Shown here: positions 2,751-30,562 of the stretch, in pieces | Numbering within the stretch: the stretch's first letter is position 1 | Layout: each line of letters opens with the position of its first letter | NCBI RefSeq assembly: GCF_010211745.1 | Contig: NZ_PDWQ01000002.1 | Span: 310,001-374,000 of the forward strand | Length of the DNA stretch: 64,000 bases | DNA from: Pseudoxanthomonas kalamensis DSM 18571 | Lineage (GTDB): Bacteria; Pseudomonadota; Gammaproteobacteria; Xanthomonadales; Xanthomonadaceae | Direction: 5' to 3' | The notes under the pieces: model-generated | What the model was told of the DNA's origin: nothing | The model's database searches: none | Seen by the model: the letters and a program-made list of their open reading frames with translations, nothing else | Made by a program: the position numbers and the translations under genes

Positions 2751-4057
2751 GTCGACGAAAATTTCAGCGTGGCGACCACGCCCTTTTCCTTGCCCGGATG
2801 CACGCCGACCTGCCAGCCATACAGGTCGCACAGGCGGCTGACGATCGACAGGCCGATACCACCACCCTGCGAGCGCCCGGCATGGGCGCCGCGATAGCCG
2901 CGCTCGAACAGTCGCGCAGCGTCTTCTTCGCTCAATCCCGGGCCGGTATCGATCACTTCCACCGCATCGGCCAGCAGCCGCACGGTCACGCTGCCCTCCT
3001 GGGTGTACTTGACCGCGTTGCCGATCAGGTTACCCAGCGCCACCGACAGCGCTGCTTCCGGCGCATCGACGGTCAGGCTGCTTTCGCCCTGCATGTGCAA
3101 CTCCAGCGGCTTGTTGCCCATCTGCGCGCGATGCGCGTCGAGCAACTGCTCGACCACCTTCGCCACCAGCGCATTGCCCTGCCCGCGCTCGTTGCGCGAC
3201 AGCTGCAACAGGGAACTGATCAGGTCGGTACATTGCTGCTCGGCGCGCTGGATCCGCGACAGACGCTGCCGCAGCTTGTCGTCGAGTGCAGGGTTGCTGA
3301 GCATCAGTTCGGTGGCGCCGCGAATCACCGCCAGCGGCGTGCGCAGTTCGTGACTGACGTCGGCATTGAATTCGCGATCGCGCTGAACCATTTCCGTCAA
3401 CCGGTCGGAATAGTCATCCAGCGCCTTGGCCAGTTCACCGACTTCGTCGTCGGGGAAATGCGATGCCAATTGCTTCGGGTTCTCGCTGCCGCGGTAGGCG
3501 CGCAATCGTGCCGCCAGTTCGGATACGGGACTCATAACTCGGGAAGCCGACCACCAGCCGATCAGCAGCGACAGCGCGCCGAAAACGAAAACGGCGACGA
3601 TCAGCCATATCTTGAGCTGCATCTGCCCTTTGCTGCTCTGGGTCATGTTGTAGGCAAGGAAAAACCAGGCATCCGGCGTCTTGCGCACGGCAAGCTTGTA
3701 CGAGAACGGTGCGCCGGTCTCGGCATCCACGCCACTCAGGTTGTGGATGCCGTCCTTGAATTCGTACCAGTCCGGCTCTTCCTGGCGAAGCTTCTCGAAA
3801 CCGTCCGGTCGCACGATCTGTCCGTACATCTGCTGTACGGGCAGATCGGTATTGTTGGGGTCCAGATAGAATCGACGCGCATATCCGTCGATGTTCTGGT
3901 TCATCACGTCTTCGACCAGTTCGTTCTCGACCCTCTGCCGCGCCATGTCGGTCAGATAGGCGAACAGGGCCGTCAGGCCGGTTCCCAGCAGGAAGAAGGA
4001 CAGGATGATGCGGGTCCGCAGCCGCCGCCGGAATGTCCTGCGCTTGCTCACCTGCAA
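2747..4057 (-). CDS. Two-component sensor histidine kinase, ColS-like
   Basis: 436 residues. Order: TM1 about 15-37, a roughly 110-residue periplasmic region, TM2 about 149-168, HAMP, HisKA with DVSHELRTPL (phospho-acceptor His236), then an HATPase domain with GNLIGNAVKYT and DTGPGLSEEDA. It phosphorylates the adjacent response regulator. The pair resembles ColRS/VgrRS systems that answer metal ions in pseudomonads and xanthomonads; an ELVE sequence at 46-49 just outside TM1 is an ExxE-type element of the sort used for metal sensing, but that link is inference. It ends in the REP-like repeat and starts 6 bases after the regulator stop. Confidence 0.88.
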   Translation of the reverse strand: MQVSKRRTFRRRLRTRIILSFFLLGTGLTALFAYLTDMARQRVENELVEDVMNQNIDGYARRFYLDPNNTDLPVQQMYGQIVRPDGFEKLRQEEPDWYEFKDGIHNLSGVDAETGAPFSYKLAVRKTPDAWFFLAYNMTQSSKGQMQLKIWLIVAVFVFGALSLLIGWWSASRVMSPVSELAARLRAYRGSENPKQLASHFPDDEVGELAKALDDYSDRLTEMVQRDREFNADVSHELRTPLAVIRGATELMLSNPALDDKLRQRLSRIQRAEQQCTDLISSLLQLSRNERGQGNALVAKVVEQLLDAHRAQMGNKPLELHMQGESSLTVDAPEAALSVALGNLIGNAVKYTQEGSVTVRLLADAVEVIDTGPGLSEEDAARLFERGYRGAHAGRSQGGGIGLSIVSRLCDLYGWQVGVHPGKEKGVVATLKFSST

Positions 4058-4063
4058 CGTAAA

Positions 4064-4756
4064 TCAGCTGCTGGCGTCGGGGGCAGCGATGCGGTACCCG
4101 ATACCGTGGCGGGTCTGGATATAGGGCGTTTCGAACGGCTTGTCGACCACCGCGCGCAAGCCGTGGATATGCACGCGCAACGAATCCGAATCGGGCAGTT
4201 CCTCGCCCCAGACTCGGGTTTCAAGTTCTTGCCGGGTCACCACCGCCGGCGAAGCCTCCATCAGCGCCTGCAGGATCTTCAGCGCGGTGGGATTGAGCTG
4301 CAGCAGCTTGCCTTGGCGCCGCACCTCGAGCGTATCCAGGTTGTATTCCATCTCGCCCACTTCCAGGATTCGCGTCTGCACCGCCTTGCCGCGACGGGCC
4401 AGGGCGTTCAGGCGCACCTCGACTTCCTGCAACGCGAACGGCTTGACCAGATAGTCGTCCGCGCCCGAATCGAATCCGGCAAGCTTGTTGTCCAGCGTGT
4501 CACGCGCCGTCAGCATCAACACCGGCGTCTGCTTGCGCGCCTCGTTGCGCAGCTTGCGGCAGACCTCCAGCCCGTCCATCCCGGGCAGGTTGAGGTCGAG
4601 CACGATCGCGTCGAACTCGTGCACCACCGCCAGATGCAAACCGGTCACGCCGTCGGCGGCAAAATCGACGGTATGTCCACGGTCTTCCAGATAATCGCCC
4701 AGGTTGGCGGCGATATCGCTGTTGTCTTCGATGACAAGTATGCGCATTTCAGTCAA
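4064..4756 (-). CDS. OmpR-family response regulator, ColR-like
   Basis: A receiver domain with the phospho-acceptor Asp in VLDLNLPG (residue 51 counted from MRILVIEDN), TARD and the Lys of VKPF, followed by a winged-helix DNA-binding domain ending HGIGYRI. The ATG at 4756 overlaps the TGA of the preceding exported-protein gene (ATGA), which implies coupled translation; the ATG at 4747 is an equally good start and gives the standard N-terminus. The receiver sequence is close to ColR. It forms one operon with the exported protein before it and the kinase after it. Confidence 0.9.
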   Translation of the reverse strand: MTEMRILVIEDNSDIAANLGDYLEDRGHTVDFAADGVTGLHLAVVHEFDAIVLDLNLPGMDGLEVCRKLRNEARKQTPVLMLTARDTLDNKLAGFDSGADDYLVKPFALQEVEVRLNALARRGKAVQTRILEVGEMEYNLDTLEVRRQGKLLQLNPTALKILQALMEASPAVVTRQELETRVWGEELPDSDSLRVHIHGLRAVVDKPFETPYIQTRHGIGYRIAAPDASS

Positions 4757-5244
4757 TTCTGTACGGGTGCTTTAAGACCTATGTTTTGCCGAACCGCGTC
4801 TTGTGACTGTTCGCGTGCCCTTCTACGCTCGGCCACTGTCATGCAATTCGTGGTTGTTCGATGCGATCCCACCTTCTTCTCACGAGTGCACACCAGACGA
4901 CTGTCCTCTCCAGCCTGCGTGAGAATCGCGTTCACCAGCTCCTGGTCATTGAACAACTCTGCCTTCTTGGCTTCGTCCAACGTTGTCAATCCGCCTGCAA
5001 CCGCCAATGAGCTGGAAATGCGATCAAGAGCAGTCTTGACCTTCTTGCGATCATCGCTGCTGATCTCGCTGTAAGTTTCACCATCCGCCAGATCACGTTC
5101 GATGGCTTGACGCTGCTCAATGAACGACTGATGCAAATCAAGAATGGAATCCGCGCCAGATGCTGCGGAACCGGATTGAATATTTGCGTACGCAGTACTC
5201 ATCGCAAGGCTGCAAACCAGTAATGCAGGTATCGAAAAACGCAT
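4753..5244 (-). CDS. Small exported protein coupled to a two-component system
   Basis: 163 residues with a signal peptide (MRFSIPALLVCSLAMSTAYA, cleavage after 20). The mature part is predicted mostly helical and charged (LHQSFIEQRQAIERDLADG). The C-terminal element C119-TREKK-x-GSH...C134-MTVAERRR resembles a cysteine-paired motif I recall from several uncharacterised periplasmic proteins of xanthomonads. First gene of the operon, with its stop overlapping the response-regulator start. Base composition is clearly less GC-rich than its neighbours. Function not known; a role in signal input to the kinase is a guess from position. Confidence 0.7.
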   Translation of the reverse strand: MRFSIPALLVCSLAMSTAYANIQSGSAASGADSILDLHQSFIEQRQAIERDLADGETYSEISSDDRKKVKTALDRISSSLAVAGGLTTLDEAKKAELFNDQELVNAILTQAGEDSRLVCTREKKVGSHRTTTNCMTVAERRRAREQSQDAVRQNIGLKAPVQN

Positions 5245-5343
5245 TTCGTCGAACCTCCTAAGATTTCGTGGGATGAATGCTTCGGAAACTGTAGCAGACC
5301 GAACGACAAGTCAAACGCGAAGAAGACACTTCGTAGTCCCCAG

Positions 5344-5375
5344 AAAAAGACCCGGGCGGCACGTGCCGCCCGGGT
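5344..5375 (-). terminator. Terminator downstream of rimK (leftward)
   Basis: A perfect 26-base palindrome at 5350-5375 (13-bp arms) is followed, reading leftward, by CTTTTTC. It lies 155 bases beyond the rimK stop. No other leftward gene ends nearby, so rimK is the natural client. The 286-base gap from 5245 to 5530 otherwise shows only an AT-rich stretch near 5480-5530. Confidence 0.65.
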
Positions 5376-5530
5376 TACAAGAACAACCCCGATTTACCGT
5401 AATCCTGTCGTTTCCAGAGCTGACGTGGTACGTGCAGAGTCGCGGCCCGGATCAAGCTATACCCAGCTCGATTAAGCGCACGTTAAAGTTTTCTTAACCT
5501 GCGAAACTGAACAGGATTTTCCCGCTATCT

Positions 5531-6424
5531 TCATGATCTAAAAGCATTTCTGGAACAAGCTGTTGCGATGTAGTCGATGATCTCGGTACCGATATCGCAG
5601 CCGCAAGCGTGCTCGATGCCTTCCAGTCCGGGGGTCGAATTCACCTCCAGCACCAGCGGGCCGCGGCGGGAGCGGATCAGGTCCACGCCGGCCAGCTCCA
5701 GACCCAAGGTCCGGGTGGCGCGGACCGCCACCTCGGCTTCCTGCGGGCTGATCTCGACCGGCTCGGCGGTGCCGCCCCGGTGCAGGTTGGAGCGGAAATC
5801 GCCTTCCGGCGCCTGCCGGCGCATGCTGGCCACGACCCGGTCGCCGACCACGAAGCAGCGTAGATCGGCACCTTCGGCCTCGGCAATGTATTCCTGCACC
5901 ACGAAGTTGGCGTACAGGCCGCGCAAGGCTTCGATCGCGCCCTTCGACGCCGACGGCTTCTCGGTCAGCATCACCCCCGCCCCCTGGGTACCCTCGGTCA
6001 GCTTGATCACGTGCGGTGGTGGACCCAGCATGTCGAGCAGGTCGGCGGTGTCGTCCGGGTTGTCGCCGAATACCGTGATCGGCAGGTCGATGCCTTCCCG
6101 CGCCAGCAACTGGTGCGCACGCAGCTTGTCGCGCGCGCGCAGGATGGCGTCGGAAGGATTGGGCGTGTAGGCGCCCATCAGTTCGAACTGCCGCAGCACG
6201 GCCGTACCGTAGCGGGTGATCGAAGTGCCGATGCGCGGGATGACGGCGTCGTAGTCGGCGACCGGCTTGCCGCGATAGTGCATGTCGAAACCGCCGCGGG
6301 CGATCCGCATGTAGCAACGCAACGGATCCAGCACGCGAACGCTGTGGCCACGCGCGCGCGCCGCCTCGACCAGACGCCGGGTCGAATACAGCTTGCTGTT
6401 GCGCGAAAGAATCGCCAGTTTCAT
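5531..6424 (-). CDS. rimK: RimK-type alpha-L-glutamate ligase
   Basis: A 297-residue ATP-grasp enzyme that adds glutamate to the C-terminus of ribosomal protein S6. Family blocks: MKLAILSRN at the start, [26 protein letters not shown] in the nucleotide-binding loop, [13 protein letters not shown] and the metal-binding [13 protein letters not shown]. Length is that of bacterial RimK. Start is the ATG at 6424. It is monocistronic, with a tRNA gene about 130 bases upstream on the same strand and a terminator downstream. Substrate specificity within the RimK family cannot be fixed from sequence alone. Confidence 0.9.
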
Positions 6425-6549
6425 CTTGCACGTGCCCGGTCTTGTTCATGCAACAGAATGACACGCCCTGAACCGTTCCTGGCAGTGCCGGACCGGAACC
6501 GGGGATCGCGGAAAGTCGGCGAGGGCGACTAGTGTGAGAAAGGGGTGAC

Positions 6550-6623
6550 TGGAGCGGGTGAAGGGAATCGAACCCTCGTCGTAAGCTTGGGAAGCTTCTG
6601 CTCTACCATTGAGCTACACCCGC
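6550..6623 (-). tRNA. tRNA-Gly (anticodon CCC)
   Basis: On the minus strand the arms read GCGGGTG / CACCCGC (acceptor), GCTC / GAGC (D arm), an anticodon loop TTCCCAA and a T arm GAGGG-TTCGATT-CCCTT. The anticodon is CCC, reading GGG. The CCA end is encoded (6550-6552). The first anticodon-stem pair (27-43) is G-A, a mismatch, and the last T-stem pair is G-T. The remaining stems pair fully, so the gene appears functional. Confidence 0.93.
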
Positions 6624-6703
6624 ACGGGCGCCCGTTGCAGGCCCCGGGAAAGTTTAGGTGGCGGCCCGGGGCGGCGCAATGGCCCACCCCGGTGCCGAGT
6701 CGG

Positions 6704-8524
6704 TCAGAATCGCCCGCCCAGGGTCAGGTACAGGCTGTTGTCGCTGCCCCCGGATTGGCCGACCGTGCCGATCGCGCCGATGTTGGCCTCCAGCTCGCCG
6801 AGGCCGATCCGCGCGCCCAGCCGCACCACGCCATAGTCCTGGTCCCAGTCGACGCCCGGAACCGCATAGGCGTCCAGCCCGCTTACCGACTCCAGCTGCG
6901 CGAAGACCTGCTCGTCGGCGTCCTCGAACTCATGCCGGTAGCTGGCCTGGAAATACGGGGTCACCCGGTCGTTGATCGCATAGCTGACCTGCCACCCCGC
7001 ATCGAGGGTCAGCGAATCCAGATCCTGGTCGGGATAGGCCAGCGACGTGGAGTTGTCCATGTTTTCGGCATAGCCATCGACCTTGATCTGCTGCATCAAC
7101 AGGCTGGCCACCGGCCCATGCTGCAGCCGGCCTTCGCCCATGCGGTAACCGGCGCTGACGCCGACGCCGAGATTGCTGCCATCGGCGCTGCCGTGATGAC
7201 TGCGGACCGCCGGCCCCAGCACCACGTCGCGCTTCACGTCATAGGACAGCCAGCTGTAGCTGAGCTGGGCATTGACCCAGGCACGGTCGCCATACCAGCC
7301 GGCAAAGCCGCCCAGCGTGGTGTCCGACTGACTGAAATCGCCGCTGTTCTGACCGAAATCCTGGGTGCCCTTGCCGTAGCCGGCAAAGCCGCCGAACACC
7401 CAGTCACCGCGCACGCTGTCCACGCCGAAGCTGCCCGACGGCGCCATCCCGTCGTACAGGTCGCCGTGATCGTAGCGCTGCATGTCGCCACGCAGGCCGC
7501 CCCACCAGCGCAAGCCGTCCTGCTCCGGCTTGCCGTCCAGATGCATGGCGACCATGTCCGCGCGTCCACGGCCAACCACGGCCGCCGAATGCGGCAGGAT
7601 GGAGATCAGGCGCGGACCCTCGATCACCGATACCGCGTACTGCGCCAGCAGCCGGTGGGCGGCGGTGCTGGGATGCACGCCATCAGCGAACGCATAGGTT
7701 TCCGCGGCGGAAGGATCGACATAGTTCAGCGGGCTGCAGGTCAGCGAAGACTCGATGTTGCAGGCGGTCCCGGTGACATTGGCGAAACCGTAGGTCCCCG
7801 GCGCAGCGGCGATCTCGCCGATGAAACTGAAGGTGTCGAGCGGGATCACCCGCAACCCGGCCGCGCCCAGGCTGGAATACAGCGCCTGGTTGTAGGTCGC
7901 CGCAAGCTGGGTACCGGCGGCGACACCCGCCGCGCCCTGGGCGAGGAACTGCGGCGTCTTGCCCAGATCGGGAATGTTGGGCACCAGCACGTACTGCGCA
8001 CCGGCGCCCTGCAGCGTGGCGATGGCGCCGAGCTGGGCGGTGATCGCCGCACCAATGGTCGCTTCCGCCGGCGCACCGGCGGCCACCGCGAACAGGTCGT
8101 TGGCACCCCCCCAGACGGTATAGAGCGCATTAGGATCGGCGCTGCCGCCATTCGCGGCGAGATAATTGCCCGTCTGAGTCAGCAGCGAGGGGACCGGGCC
8201 GAAATCGCTGCTGCGATCCTCGCCCGCAAGCGCGCCACCGACTGCATAGTTGGTCCCACCCTGATTGTCGCTGTCCGCATTGGTTCCGTAATAGTCGGCC
8301 AGGAACTCGGCCCAGACCCAACCCGGGTTGGTGGTGAAACGGCCCAGCACGGCCGCATCCGGACCAGCAACCTGGACCAGCGCGGGCCGGAAATGGCCCG
8401 AGTCGGTCAGGCTGTCGCCGATGAAGACCGTTTCGGAGAACGTGCTGCCGGCCATTGCCGGCGCCGTCGCCAGGGCCAGCGCCGCCGCGAGGGCGGAGCA
8501 GGCCGGGAATTTGATCGATTGCAT
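6704..8524 (-). CDS. GDSL-family esterase autotransporter (EstA-like)
   Basis: 606 residues. Signal peptide 1-25 (ends APAMA). A GDSL/SGNH hydrolase domain follows, with the nucleophile Ser in GDSLTDSG (about residues 36-43), the GGANDL block and the catalytic DGVHPS block. A C-terminal autotransporter beta-barrel of about 270 residues ends in aromatic GGRF. The enzyme is expected to stay on the outer surface and hydrolyse esters, as EstA does. The ATG at 8524 is preceded by AGGAGGG, which fixes the start although the frame is open upstream. Natural substrate unknown. Confidence 0.9.
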   Translation of the reverse strand: MQSIKFPACSALAAALALATAPAMAGSTFSETVFIGDSLTDSGHFRPALVQVAGPDAAVLGRFTTNPGWVWAEFLADYYGTNADSDNQGGTNYAVGGALAGEDRSSDFGPVPSLLTQTGNYLAANGGSADPNALYTVWGGANDLFAVAAGAPAEATIGAAITAQLGAIATLQGAGAQYVLVPNIPDLGKTPQFLAQGAAGVAAGTQLAATYNQALYSSLGAAGLRVIPLDTFSFIGEIAAAPGTYGFANVTGTACNIESSLTCSPLNYVDPSAAETYAFADGVHPSTAAHRLLAQYAVSVIEGPRLISILPHSAAVVGRGRADMVAMHLDGKPEQDGLRWWGGLRGDMQRYDHGDLYDGMAPSGSFGVDSVRGDWVFGGFAGYGKGTQDFGQNSGDFSQSDTTLGGFAGWYGDRAWVNAQLSYSWLSYDVKRDVVLGPAVRSHHGSADGSNLGVGVSAGYRMGEGRLQHGPVASLLMQQIKVDGYAENMDNSTSLAYPDQDLDSLTLDAGWQVSYAINDRVTPYFQASYRHEFEDADEQVFAQLESVSGLDAYAVPGVDWDQDYGVVRLGARIGLGELEANIGAIGTVGQSGGSDNSLYLTLGGRF

Positions 8525-26036: not shown

Positions 26037-26110
26037 GTGACGTGATCGCTTCGTAAGCAGGCTGAACGCGCATGTTAGTGGGTCGCCGCCGCCTGACTGG
26101 GATACTTGAT

Positions 26111-26142
26111 ATAATTCTATATTTCTGGAAATATAGAATTAT
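26111..26142. promoter_or_regulatory. Perfect palindromic operator at arsR start
   Basis: Two perfect 15-bp arms separated by TG (ATAATTCTATATTTC, TG, then its exact inverse) run into the A and T of the arsR start codon. A consensus -10 (TATAAT, 26110-26115) overlaps its left end. AT-rich interrupted palindromes of this kind are classic ArsR operators. Repressor bound here would cover the promoter and start site. Confidence 0.8.
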
Positions 26143-26476
26143 GGATGCCGCTACCACCGTCACCGCGCTCAAGGCTCTGGCCCACGACAGCCGCCTGGCG
26201 GCCTATCGCACCCTCGTCCAGGCTGGGCCGGCGGGCTTGGCCGTGGGCGAATTGCGCGATGCGCTGGGTCTGCCGCCGGCCACCCTGACCGCGCACCTGA
26301 ACGTGCTGCGCGCCGCCGGCCTGATCCAGGACGAACGCGAAGGCCGGGTCATCCGCCTGCGCACCGATTTCGCGCAAATGAATGCGCTGCTCGGCTACCT
26401 GACCGAAAACTGCTGCGGCGGCGAACCCTGCGCGCCGGCGGCCTGCTCCGCCTCTACCCGAGAAATCTCCGCATGA
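26141..26476 (+). CDS. arsR: Arsenic-responsive ArsR-family repressor
   Basis: 111 residues. A winged-helix domain with GELRDALGLPPATLTAHLNV as the recognition-helix region. A C-terminal cysteine cluster, C91-C92, C97 and C102, resembles the As(III) site of the Acidithiobacillus-type ArsR rather than the E. coli CxC site. The ATG at 26141 is chosen because conserved sequence begins there; it has no clear ribosome-binding site and overlaps the operator palindrome, so a short leader is expected. Its stop overlaps the arsC start. It is expected to repress arsR-arsC-aquaporin until arsenite binds. Confidence 0.88.
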   Translation: MDAATTVTALKALAHDSRLAAYRTLVQAGPAGLAVGELRDALGLPPATLTAHLNVLRAAGLIQDEREGRVIRLRTDFAQMNALLGYLTENCCGGEPCAPAACSASTREISA

Positions 26477-26970: not shown

Positions 26971-27638
26971 CCCGCAAACTGCTGGCCGAATTCTGCGCCA
27001 GCTTGCTGCTGCTGGCGGTGGTGATCGGTTCCGGGGTCATGGCCGAACGCCTGGCCGGCGGCAACCTGGCAATCGCGCTGCTGGCCAACACCGCGGCCAC
27101 GATGGCCGCGCTGTACGTGCTGATCGAACTGTTCGGCCCGGTCAGCGGCGCGCACATGAATCCCGCCGTCAGCCTGGCGATGGCGCTGCGCGGCGAATTG
27201 CCGTGGAACGCCTTTGCGCCGTATCTGCTGGCGCAACTGGCCGGCGCGGCATGCGGCGCCTGGCTGGTGCATGCGATGTTCGACTTGCCGGTGCTGCAAT
27301 GGTCGCAGCACGCACGGCATGGCGGCGGGCAGTGGCTGGCCGAGATCGTGGCGACCGCCGGCCTGCTGCTGATCGTGCTGCGGGCACCATCGTCGCGGGT
27401 TGCGGCGCTGGTCGCCTGCTGGATCGGCGCGGGTTACTGGTTCACGTCCTCGACCGCGTTCGCCAACCCGGCCGCCGCGTTCGGGCGCATGTTCAGCGAC
27501 AGCTTCGCCGGCATCGCCCCGGCCGATGTCCCCGGCTTCGTGCTGGCCGAACTGGTCGGCATGGCGCTGGCCCTGGGTTTGCATCGTGCGTTGGGAATCG
27601 GAGCCGCAAGCACACAGGCCTCGGGTGCCCGTGCCTGA
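26967..27638 (+). CDS. MIP-family channel of the ars operon (AqpS-like)
   Basis: 223 residues, six membrane segments, with the two pore boxes HMNPAV (NPA at 65-67) and FANPAAA (NPA at 167-169). The Arg that follows the second NPA box in most aquaporins is displaced to GR four residues on, as expected for AqpS-type channels. In S. meliloti such a channel beside ArsC lets arsenite flow out down its gradient. Start is the GTG overlapping the arsC stop. No ArsB or Acr3 pump is encoded here, so this channel is the likely exit. The last 12 residues are low-complexity. Confidence 0.85.
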   Translation: MTRKLLAEFCASLLLLAVVIGSGVMAERLAGGNLAIALLANTAATMAALYVLIELFGPVSGAHMNPAVSLAMALRGELPWNAFAPYLLAQLAGAACGAWLVHAMFDLPVLQWSQHARHGGGQWLAEIVATAGLLLIVLRAPSSRVAALVACWIGAGYWFTSSTAFANPAAAFGRMFSDSFAGIAPADVPGFVLAELVGMALALGLHRALGIGAASTQASGARA

Positions 27639-27700
27639 GGGTCACCGGCGCACCTTCTCCCTGCTTGCCGAGCGGGCATACCCATAACGGCGTGACCCAA

Positions 27701-27766
27701 GGTGGGCCAAGGCCCACCCTACGCAAACATTACAACCCTCAACCGTGGGGCGGGCTCAAGCCCGCC
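27701..27766. repeat. Two short intergenic palindromes
   Basis: GGTGGGCCAAGGCCCACC (27701-27718) and GGCGGGCTCAAGCCCGCC (27749-27766) are near-perfect inverted repeats between the aquaporin gene and the cassette array. Both are of the GC-rich dispersed palindrome type common in xanthomonads. They may terminate the ars operon; there is no T-run. They also mark the place where the attC half-site was cut. Confidence 0.5.
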
Positions 27767-27779
27767 TTGCGCGGGTTGT

Positions 27780-27820
27780 CGAGACCGCGAAGCGGGCTCG
27801 GCTTGGATGAATTGTTAGGT
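27780..27820 (-). repeat. Truncated attC site (left end of cassette array)
   Basis: Read on the minus strand, the site begins ACCTAACAATTCATCCAAGC and runs into CGAGCCCGCTTCGCGG, the R'' box and the first arm of a Xanthomonas-type attC. The matching second arm and R' core (GTTRRRY) are absent; other palindromic DNA lies there instead. It abuts the 3' end of the first cassette gene, whose TAA stop is inside the R'' box, the normal position in integron cassettes. Confidence 0.7.
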
Positions 27821-28612
27821 GCTTGGCTCGGAAGCACCGACAAACGGGCTGGGATCGTCCTTAAAGGGGATCGGGACTATTACCCAGTCGTTTTCGGTAA
27901 TTATCCCTTCAGCCAACACCATGCAGACGCCATCAAAGACTTCCCAGCACTTATCGCCATAGTATTCCAGCTGTTTAAAGAGCCATACACGCGCCTCGTC
28001 TATGGCCTTTTCTCGTTCGCCGACGAAGTCCTTGTTCCCCATGGCATCGATGTACGTATTGAGAATTGCCAAGCGAGCCAATTCAGGATCTGCATGGCGA
28101 TGGCGCCTTTGGTGTACGTGGGAACCGCGTGTTTCTATTAGATCACCAAGCTGCTCAAATACCAGCTTTCTAAGGGACTCGCACACCTCAACGACTGGCT
28201 CCGAGAAATCCTTGTCCTTCTTATACTTTCGCTCGACGTACTTAAGAAGATCGAGGATGCGTTGCTGAAAGATGTAGACCTCATTGAGGTAAGCCTCGTT
28301 CCAGAACGTGATCACGGTCGAGGCATGCTCTGACGGTGTGGTGTGCAAGGTCTGACGGACCAACACATCTACTACATCGAGCGTTTCGCAAGACTGCATG
28401 CACTCGTAAAAGATGTTGAACAAGTCCCGCAGAAAGGTGACTTCGCGCGACTCATCAACAACGCCTTGGTCGTACCCCCATGGCGTCTTGATCAGCTTGA
28501 TGCTCCGCTCATGCGCGTGCCGATTCCTATCTTCCTTTTGCCTAAGCTTGGCAGCGGGTTTGCTTAGAGCCCGGAGGAAGCGAGCAACGTGGTCCGGTAG
28601 TTCGCGGCTCAT
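27815..28612 (-). CDS. Integron cassette protein with HEPN-like motif
   Basis: 265 residues, soluble, helical, no signal peptide. Not a family I can name. Between residues 148 and 190 a helix pair carries R162-GSHV-H167 within ETRGSHVHQRR, an RX4H pattern as in HEPN RNases; a second RNRHAH (29-34) occurs near the N-terminus. Charged helices such as LLKYVERKYKKDKDFSEP separate them. GC content is visibly below the chromosome. It lies reversed between an attC half-site (downstream) and a full attC (upstream). A HEPN toxin or defence nuclease is a hypothesis only. Confidence 0.7.
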   Translation of the reverse strand: MSRELPDHVARFLRALSKPAAKLRQKEDRNRHAHERSIKLIKTPWGYDQGVVDESREVTFLRDLFNIFYECMQSCETLDVVDVLVRQTLHTTPSEHASTVITFWNEAYLNEVYIFQQRILDLLKYVERKYKKDKDFSEPVVEVCESLRKLVFEQLGDLIETRGSHVHQRRHRHADPELARLAILNTYIDAMGNKDFVGEREKAIDEARVWLFKQLEYYGDKCWEVFDGVCMVLAEGIITENDWVIVPIPFKDDPSPFVGASEPST

Positions 28613-28623
28613 TGTCTACAAGT

Positions 28624-28732
28624 ACCTAACGCCTGAGTTAAGCCGGGCCGCTTTGCGGCCACGGCAGAGTGACCATGTTACGACGCTCTACCGTGGCCGC
28701 GAAGCGGGCCCGGCTTGAACGAATTGTTAGGC
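28624..28732 (-). repeat. Complete integron attC site (109 bp)
   Basis: On the plus strand the ends are ACCTAAC (28624-28630) and GTTAGGC (28726-28732). GCCTGAGTTAAGCC leads one arm and CGGCTTGAACGAATT the other. The arms continue inward as an imperfect hairpin of about 25 bp per side (GGGCCGCTTTGCGGCCACGG against its partner) around a short variable loop. Size, end boxes and arm sequences are those of a Xanthomonas-type attC. Orientation agrees with both cassette genes reading leftward. Confidence 0.9.
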
Positions 28733-28752
28733 TGCACGCCTCTTATGAAGCA

Positions 28753-29394
28753 TCAGAATGCAGCGTCAGCATCAAGCATCAGGAAGAAAATGTCACCGCA
28801 AGACATGTCGTTGTGAATGACCTTACGTCCGTTGTCGGCTTGACTGTAGTTGAGGCCGAAATGAGAAACAGGAAGAATCGACGGGAACATGTGTATGGAT
28901 CCGCCATGGCTCATTGCATCTCGAATGACGGCTGCGAACTGAAGTACGGCAGGCCATTGATTGCATTTTCTCTTGCCGTGTGTCGATTCAATCAAATCTA
29001 GGTTTGTCTCCCAATATCGAGTGAACATCGACTGGGCAAGACCTTCAAGAACTTGCGCTACAGCGACTGTCGAGTCGCCAGTAATCTGATCGAAAGTTGG
29101 CTTGACAAGATAGGGGATTTGCCCGGTCCGCATATCGCGGTTGAAAACGTTAGTCAGAATATCGTGTGGAACTAGCTCCAGATTTTTTCCGCTCGCTAGT
29201 CCGGCAAATGCGGCGGTCGGGTACTGCGGCGCCCCATTTTCCGTATGCGGTGCAAACGTTGCGACAGAACGGCCGTGATAAGCGCCAATGTAACGCCCGA
29301 TCGCGCAAGACGCCACGGCGAAGTCCAGCGCAAATTCGTAGCACCTGTGGTTGGTGGGAATGAACTGAATCCCTGGAATCTGATCAATAGACAT
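28753..29394 (-). CDS. Integron cassette protein, HEPN-like motif near C-terminus
   Basis: 213 residues, soluble. Unknown family. The segment 157-165 reads IRDAMSHGG, giving R158-DAMS-H163, a good RX4H HEPN-type catalytic pattern set at the start of a helix and followed by a small Gly-rich turn. Upstream helices (AVAQVLEGLAQSMFTRYWET) would fit a four-helix bundle. The N-terminal half contains a YIGAYHGRSVATF stretch of no known role. Lower GC than the chromosome. It is followed by its own complete attC and preceded by a half site. Ribonuclease activity is inferred from the motif alone. Confidence 0.7.
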   Translation of the reverse strand: MSIDQIPGIQFIPTNHRCYEFALDFAVASCAIGRYIGAYHGRSVATFAPHTENGAPQYPTAAFAGLASGKNLELVPHDILTNVFNRDMRTGQIPYLVKPTFDQITGDSTVAVAQVLEGLAQSMFTRYWETNLDLIESTHGKRKCNQWPAVLQFAAVIRDAMSHGGSIHMFPSILPVSHFGLNYSQADNGRKVIHNDMSCGDIFFLMLDADAAF

Positions 29395-29432
29395 ATCTCA
29401 CTCGATGGTTGAGGAAGCTGCATGCTTGTGCA

Positions 29433-29455
29433 GCCTAACACCTGATTAGACCGCT
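29433..29455 (-). repeat. Degenerate attC/attI half-site (right end of array)
   Basis: On the minus strand TCTAATCAGGTGTTAGGC resembles the R' side of an attC (usual form TTAACTCAGGCGTTAGGC), giving the recombination core GTTAGGC at 29433-29439. No matching R'' arm was found to its right and no integrase gene follows; cysB starts at once. It marks the leading edge of the array. Confidence 0.6.
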
Positions 29456-29581
29456 AAATTGCAGCACTAATTGGAGTATCCTCAATCCACGACAGGCGGC
29501 AAATCCAGCGTCTTGCCGGATCATGTGCTTCCCTTAACATTGCCGAAGCCGGGAATCACCCGCAGCTATCCGCAACCCACC

Positions 29582-30562
29582 TCAAATCGTGATCGTCTGG
29601 CTCAACGATTCCCAACTCGGGGGTGCAGGCCATTTGGCTTCCTGGTTGCCTTCCATCACCCGGCGCAGGTCGCGTTTGTCGATCTGCGGGGCCAGTGCCT
29701 GCACCAAGTCCAAAGCGTAGTCGCGCAGCACGCGTTCGCGCGGCAGCACGGCCCAGGCGACGCATTCGTTGATCTGCTTCGGCGCCGGCCATGCGCGCAG
29801 GTCGGCGTCGGTGGCGCTGATCGCCATTTCCGCCAGCAGGCCCACGCCCAGGCCGGCACGCACGTAGGTCTTGATCAGGTCCGCGTCCAGCGCGGTCAGG
29901 GCGATACTCGGTTCCAGCCCTAAACTGGCGAAGGCGCGCTGCAGCGACGATTCCGGGCGGGTCGAGGACTCGTAGCTGATCAGCGGTTGCGCGGCCAGTG
30001 CCGCCATGTCCGGCGCCTCGGCGCTGTCCAGCGGATGGCCGCGCGGCACCAGCGCCAGCCGCCGCCAGCGGTACAGCGGCACCGCCACTCCGGCCTGCGG
30101 CACGTCGCCTGCGGTGCTGACCACGGCCATGTCGGCATCGCCGGCGCCCAGCAGGTCCAACGCGGTGCTTTCGGCGGCCTGTTGCAAATGCACGCTGACC
30201 TGCGGATAAGCCTGCTTGATGCGGGCGATGGCCGGCGGCAGCACGAACCGGGCCTGGGTGTGGGTGGTGACCACCACCAGCTGACCCTGGCTTTCGCGGC
30301 GCTGATTGGCGGCGTAGGTGCGGATGTTGTTGGCTTCAGCCAGCACCGCGCGGGCGCGGGCGATGACTTCCTCGCCGGCCGGGGTCACCGATTCCAGGCT
30401 GCGGCCCTTGCGCACGAACAACAGGAACCCCAGCTCGTCTTCCAACTGCTTGAGCTGCTTGGACAAGCCCGGCTGGGTGGCGTGCACATGCGACGCCGCC
30501 TGCGTGATGTTGAGCTCGGCGTCGGCAATGGCGATCAGGTAGCGCAGCTGGGTCAGGGTCAT
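29582..30562 (-). CDS. cysB: LysR-type regulator CysB
   Basis: 326 residues. An N-terminal winged helix (MTLTQLRYLIAIADAELNIT, then QAASHVHATQPGLSKQLKQL) and a periplasmic-binding-like effector domain. The sequence VVTTHTQARFVLPPAI is typical of CysB/Cbl, which sense N-acetylserine and sulfate/thiosulfate and activate cysteine biosynthesis genes. It diverges from cysK and is probably its activator, with cysD-cysNC also likely targets. The ATG at 30562 is chosen over an upstream extension because the conserved MTLTQLRYL starts there. Confidence 0.9.
   Translation of the reverse strand: MTLTQLRYLIAIADAELNITQAASHVHATQPGLSKQLKQLEDELGFLLFVRKGRSLESVTPAGEEVIARARAVLAEANNIRTYAANQRRESQGQLVVVTTHTQARFVLPPAIARIKQAYPQVSVHLQQAAESTALDLLGAGDADMAVVSTAGDVPQAGVAVPLYRWRRLALVPRGHPLDSAEAPDMAALAAQPLISYESSTRPESSLQRAFASLGLEPSIALTALDADLIKTYVRAGLGVGLLAEMAISATDADLRAWPAPKQINECVAWAVLPRERVLRDYALDLVQALAPQIDKRDLRRVMEGNQEAKWPAPPSWESLSQTITI

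Follow-up and report, generated by a model that had tools for sequence, protein, structure and literature searches.

A cassette gene in a 64,000-nucleotide stretch of Pseudoxanthomonas kalamensis DNA (hereafter the window) encodes a protein, P0001, in which an arginine and a histidine are separated by four residues. The initial annotation took this string for the catalytic motif of the HEPN ribonucleases, with which bacteria shut down their own growth under phage attack; this raises the question whether the gene encodes such an enzyme and, if it does, whether the protein works alone or as one half of a toxin-antitoxin pair. We infer, with a probability of roughly 60%, that P0001 is a stand-alone RNase of the HEPN superfamily, both in fold and in activity, and that it belongs to a rare family, nameless in the libraries searched, that would serve phage defence or dormancy. 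The features on which the argument turns are listed in Table 1.

Table 1. Positions in the window of the P0001 gene, its proposed active-site codons and the associated cassette elements
Feature	Position	Strand	Remarks
Cassette gene, proposed stand-alone HEPN-type RNase (P0001)	28753..29394	minus	213 aa, ATG start, family of 14
R158-D-A-M-S-H163 codons, proposed RNase active-site motif RX4H	28906..28923	minus	R and H invariant, 14/14
E129 codon, candidate conserved acidic residue of helix 2	29008..29010	minus	E in 9/13 rows with a residue; inside predicted helix 108-139
Complete attC, downstream end of the P0001 cassette	28625..28731	minus	25-nt arms 88% and 72% complementary
Upstream cassette end, TGTTAGGCTGCAC	29428..29440	minus	13/13 complementary to start of own attC (28725-28737), inverted repeat
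First part of attC after the second cassette	27780..27819	minus	88% identical over 40 nt to 28692-28731
Next cassette gene, 265 aa, own R-GSHV-H motif	27815..28612	minus	motif conserved in one relative

Conservation of the motif in the P0001 family

The reading frame of P0001 is intact and contains no stop. As first described, the 213-residue protein carries R158-DAMS-H163 at residues 158-163, with G164-G165 directly after. A second string of the same general form, R34-YIGAY-H40, is present as well, and 50,000 shuffles of P0001 contained on average 1.07 strings of the form RX4-6H. Because 69% of the shuffles had at least one, the bare motif was not counted as evidence, and statistics of this kind were rejected as an argument for a HEPN protein. 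The fuller pattern R[NDH]xx[AS]HGG, which was picked after the sequence had been seen, occurred in 0.004% of 50,000 shuffles. The weight of the motif comes, as far as sequence comparison goes, from the conservation of R158 and H163 in a family that can be recognised without it.

This family was represented by an alignment of 14 members. Omitted from it were L001, L004 and L016 (the P0001 gene again), L017 and L018 (the same genes as L006 and L005), L009, L010, L015, L053, L057 and L058 (on contigs shared with L007, L008 and L011), and L012 and L013, which match PF18736 and were kept for comparison. Two rows are partial, L006 (136 aa) and L023 (80 aa). L014 was included from a weak match to L007 (E 7e-3), and later scored E 1e-14, or 3.6e-6 when masked. 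For a leave-one-out test, residues 150-168 were masked and every member was compared with a profile built from the remaining members, masked likewise; the near twins L019 and L020 were not used for each other. All 14 members outranked the 4,200 shuffled decoys, with E values from 1e-28 to 2.5e-5, in a test that is somewhat favoured by the alignment having been built jointly with the held-out rows. Judged by these masked profiles, membership of the family is independent of the motif.

Across the 14 members R158 and H163 are the sole invariant columns, and the same two residues alone were invariant in an earlier set of eight. The N-terminal halves align poorly. Excerpts of the HEPN survey PMC3710099 give as hallmarks of the superfamily an RX4-6H motif with a polar residue (N, D or H) after the arginine, a position of the motif at the close of helix 3 and, in many families, an acidic residue in helix 2. 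A polar residue follows R158 in every member of the P0001 family (N in nine, D in five), in agreement with the first of these hallmarks, and the position preceding H163 is A or S throughout. An acidic residue at the place expected is found in the E129 column (E in 9 of the 13 rows having a residue there), the helix in question being taken from the predicted model. The initial reading of the string as HEPN-type is thus strengthened by the invariance of R158 and H163 in a family recognisable without the motif.

The integron cassette setting

The P0001 gene is a true integron cassette, with its own foldable attC of the type common to the array in this genome. The complete attC folds far better than shuffled sequence on either strand (z -7.5 and -7.3), and the perfect complementarity between the upstream end of the cassette and the start of the attC fits gene and attC having formed one original cassette. 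The GC content of the cassette is 51%, against 67% for the window. A search of the genome for attC gave 62 rows, 61 of them additional to the P0001 attC; many rows represent parts of a single site. An integron integrase scoring above the TIGR02249 cut-off is encoded in the same genome on another contig. Carriage by an integron, part of the original proposal, is well borne out by the foldable attC, the matching rows and the integrase.

Of the 62 rows, nine map neither to contig C149 nor to the terminal array of contig C94, and two of these nine are the window's own. Single or partial attC sites far from the main array are found on contigs C73, C84 and C94, which suggests that cassettes are present at secondary chromosomal sites. 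On the contig that carries the integrase, the product of another cassette (L048:1357-1782, minus strand) is a HEPN protein of the DUF4145/HepT-like kind (E 2.9e-9 to Pfam DUF4145), so the genome holds at least one other HEPN cassette.

The cassette pair in the window is a displaced group outside the main array. It lies downstream of a LysR-type gene, which we take to be cysB-like; the P0001 gene follows that gene on the same strand after 188 bases. In all seven same-genus stretches compared, no alignment continues immediately past the cysB-like gene; in one of them (L071) the gene at window 26105-26421 aligns, some 3.8 kb away. The similarity to these stretches ends at 29582-29588, at the end of the LysR-type gene, which may mark a variable site.

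A HEPN-type cassette displaced from its array might simply be stored unexpressed. This reading is compatible with our preferred explanation, and we regard it as possible, if somewhat doubtful. It is favoured by the location of the pair and of the integrase on different contigs and by a consensus scan that found no promoter-like site in 27600-29900. The partial attC after the second cassette points the same way, as it folds weakly (z -2.5) and the remainder of the site, including its end, is not recognisable. On the other side, the frame has stayed intact, and read-through from the LysR-type gene is possible because the two genes share a strand, are separated by 188 bases and have no terminator-like site that we could find between them.

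Predicted structure and library searches

AlphaFold2 models, built with five sequences, were obtained for P0001 and for its viral relative L007 (mean pLDDT 54.8 and 51.2, respectively). The main helices span residues 16-42, 108-139, 149-162 and 199-212 in P0001 and 32-52, 115-145, 154-167 and 205-218 in L007; an extra short helix (79-84), in the low-pLDDT part of the P0001 model, was left out of this count. In these low-to-middling models the predicted order is the same: helix 1 is followed by strands, then by a long second helix and a third that closes with the motif and, after a hairpin, by the final helix. The 10-residue blocks around the motif are modelled best (mean pLDDT 87 and 79 in P0001, 86 and 71 in L007). 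Confidence falls below 50 over residues 1-111 of P0001 and 1-121 of L007, so that helix 1 and the bundle as a whole are unproven. The initial annotation had placed the motif at the start of a helix; both models instead predict that it closes the third main helix.

Fold searches with these models returned little. Foldseek found nothing at E <= 0.001 in the PDB with either model, nor in BFVD with the one model tried. VIA-align reached at most Z 3.0, with unrelated proteins uppermost; its sole row from a family counted as HEPN in the excerpts of PMC3710099 was AbiV at Z 2.0, which was not used as evidence. Rows for ribosome recycling factor and for bromodomains were dismissed as common helical arrangements. 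The structural check proposed at the outset gave four predicted main helices, the third closing with the motif, but no HEPN structure of any weight was matched and helix 1 lies in the region below pLDDT 50.

Sequence libraries gave a similar picture. At E <= 10 neither Pfam nor PADLOC had a match for P0001. NCBIfam gave a transporter row at chance level (E 0.06, well short of the cut-off), and PHROGs a family of unassigned function (E 0.26). With all 14 members as queries, Pfam listed seven weak families at E <= 1, one of them HEPN (E 0.076), and PADLOC listed four families with a best E of 0.031. No Pfam HEPN family reached its cut-off in any of the 14.

These results leave room for a family of mixed helices and strands outside the HEPN superfamily, in which R158 and H163 would be kept because they stabilise the protein or bind a ligand or nucleic acid. 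Besides the fold searches, such a reading can draw on the strands before helix 2 and after the motif, which are foreign to the basic HEPN bundle. We consider it rather unlikely, as the arginine, the polar N or D, the A or S, the histidine, the upstream acidic residue and the helix-end position of the motif together fit HEPN, and a beta-hairpin directly after the motif has been described for the Csx1 HEPN family (PMC3710099, excerpts).

Distribution of the family

The family is rare in the collections searched, with distant relatives on three IMG/VR contigs, on two plasmids and in other genomes of the same order. Counts that include the genome of origin were 1 of 38 genomes in the genus and 2 of 198 in the taxonomic family (P0001 as query), 8 of 348 in the order (8-row profile, E <= 0.01, which added more distant branches), 1 of 274 in the class (14-row profile) and 2 of 398 in the phylum (3-row profile). 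The relative on a Cylindrospermopsis plasmid shares 26% identity across 98% of the protein, and that on a Rhizobium plasmid (L014) was reached weakly from L007, at the E of 7e-3 given above. A relative in Xanthomonas populi is a fragment with a stop and, by position, is at the same place as the match in genome G175. Queries with P0001 and with the L007 protein found no relatives in named phage genomes; none were found in E. coli genomes at the DNA level, or in viral and genome contigs with P0001 alone. Further single-protein scans returned the contig of the query only, and plasmid searches with two further members added nothing.

On the IMG/VR contigs, the L007 gene adjoins portal and terminase genes, and the L008 gene lies just downstream of a portal gene. 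On L011, in the region 3179-7466, the relative is flanked by an HNH_5 nuclease gene and a gene for a 704-aa AAA_15/AAA_21 ATPase, a defence-like arrangement. The neighbourhoods of L007, L008 and L011 fit cargo or defence genes, without proving such a role. A gene for a Y-family (UmuC/DinB-like) DNA polymerase lies beside the member both in L007 (586-1848, viral contig) and in L014 (3290-4384); the two polymerases share 29% over 206 residues, and the L014 copy is annotated as DNA polymerase IV. A reverse transcriptase gene is also near the member in L014.

BLAST matched the attC of the P0001 cassette in none of the 16 relatives' loci. With a looser pattern, two unconfirmed candidates turned up in these loci, one within the L011 gene and the other at L022:1365-1501. 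The latter is an attC-like inverted repeat over the 3' end of a distant member, which may be a second cassette-borne member or a chance match. From these loci the family does not look integron-specific.

The next cassette and the search for an antitoxin

The original description saw no antitoxin beside P0001 unless the next cassette served as one. The 265-aa product of that cassette has no Pfam match at E <= 10. Its TRGSHVHxRR string is shared with a protein on a Paraburkholderia plasmid (L056:2878-3531), with 27% identity over 115 residues. The R-GSHV-H motif of the neighbour is also of the RX4H form and may mark a second HEPN-like protein.

Among 503 frames of at least 40 aa within 1.5 kb of the 14 members, no recurring small partner was found. 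Two further minus-strand frames (64 and 81 aa) overlap the P0001 gene itself. The sole likeness between loci is the Y-family polymerase of L007 and L014, thus no partner gene recurs. In the HepT/MntA module a nucleotidyltransferase gene is adjacent, and here the neighbours are the protein without a Pfam match and the LysR-type gene. Among the neighbours scanned, no recognisable antitoxin was seen at this locus, nor a recurrent small neighbour beside the relatives. That P0001 is instead the toxin of a toxin-antitoxin pair, with its antitoxin supplied by the next cassette or from elsewhere, was raised at the outset and has in its favour the head-to-tail order of the two genes on one strand and the HEPN toxins with nucleotidyltransferase partners described in the excerpts of PMC3710099, but we hold it improbable, given that the neighbour carries its own R-GSHV-H and lacks a Pfam match, that a separate attC, or part of one, goes with each gene, and that no small partner recurs.

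A model for P0001 and its place among known systems

For the stand-alone HEPN RNase that we prefer, we infer the fold, the RNase activity, the trigger and the role in defence from the features described above. P0001 would consist of four main helices, with beta strands between helices 1 and 2 and a beta-hairpin between helices 3 and 4. A metal-independent RNA-cleaving site would be made up of R158 and H163 where helix 3 ends, with H163 promoting attack by the 2'-OH, R158 holding the phosphate, and D159 and E129 assisting. As a single gene with no recognised antitoxin, P0001 would most likely stay silent or weakly active until a trigger, such as a phage product, switched it on. Cleavage of RNA would then stop growth, resulting in abortive infection or dormancy. 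The gene itself travels as an integron cassette. More tentatively, and in our opinion with well under an even chance, this HEPN RNase family without a library name could constitute a one-gene, antitoxin-free anti-phage system that is traded between phages, plasmids and integron cassettes, in which the beta inserts flanking the hairpin of helices 2 and 3 could form a sensing surface.

A protein of this kind is already known, and what P0001 adds is a family without a name in the libraries searched. In the excerpts of PMC3710099, 'Integron cassette HEPN' (3jrt) is one of the families listed, and dormancy driven by an RNase is the role proposed for cassettes of this sort; as both HEPN integron cassettes and their role were proposed there in 2013, P0001 is not surprising in kind. 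Integrons are described as stores of anti-phage genes in the available portions of PMC12444791 and PMC12409362, which make no mention of HEPN. According to work cited in the former, 20% of the V. cholerae cassettes that lacked a predicted function proved to be anti-phage, and annotation tools miss them. The titles and opening lines of abstracts of other literature on HEPN proteins and integrons contained nothing that points to the P0001 family. The P0001 cassette is of the sort that annotation misses, being unnamed by Pfam, NCBIfam, PADLOC and PHROGs, and the 14-member family picks out two candidate catalytic residues, which makes the cassette directly testable.

Among known HEPN families, PF18736 (HEPN pEK499_p136) was compared most closely. 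The match of L007 to it (E 0.076) covers the motif and the following residues, and its 13.2 bits fall short of the cut-off of 26.6. The likeness consists of R-x4-H with a polar residue after the arginine, followed by a stretch that is strand-rich by eye and by a last helix. Members of PF18736 are often plasmid genes annotated as 'HEPN family nuclease' (judged from the 60 listed of 743 records); at about 155-165 aa, they differ from P0001 in lacking the long first half found in its family. L013, itself a sub-threshold PF18736 match (E 3e-4), gave a 16-column alignment to the family profile, situated at the motif (E 5.5e-4). The comparison of the family profile with five PF18736 members extended over 13 columns around the motif (E 0.06), and that with the 8-row alignment gave E 0.28. 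As controls, the same five members against a DUF4145/HepT-like cassette protein, both accepted HEPN, gave E 0.1, and an unrelated LysR protein against the family profile gave E 0.49. Because an accepted HEPN pair scores only E 0.1, profile comparison is insensitive and decides neither way. What the P0001 family shares with other HEPN families is no larger than the motif and could have arisen by convergence.

The HEPN_Apea family (PF18739) was found in 0 of 90 genomes and 0 of 14 controls and is thus uninformative for comparison. The DUF4145/HepT-like HEPN proteins (PF13643, PF01934) have an RNxxAH motif like that of the P0001 family; against the family profile their similarity is weak and confined to the motif (E 0.37). 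In the Csx1-type HEPN RNases of CRISPR systems a beta-hairpin comes right after RX4-6H (PMC3710099, excerpts), as predicted by the P0001 model; P0001 itself has no sign of a CRISPR sensor domain, because Pfam gave no match at E <= 10. In PDB sequence searches at E <= 10, neither P0001 nor the 14-member profile retrieved the Integron cassette HEPN protein (PDB 3jrt). It has in common with P0001 that it, too, is a HEPN protein encoded by an integron cassette (Anantharaman et al., 2013; PMC3710099, excerpts).
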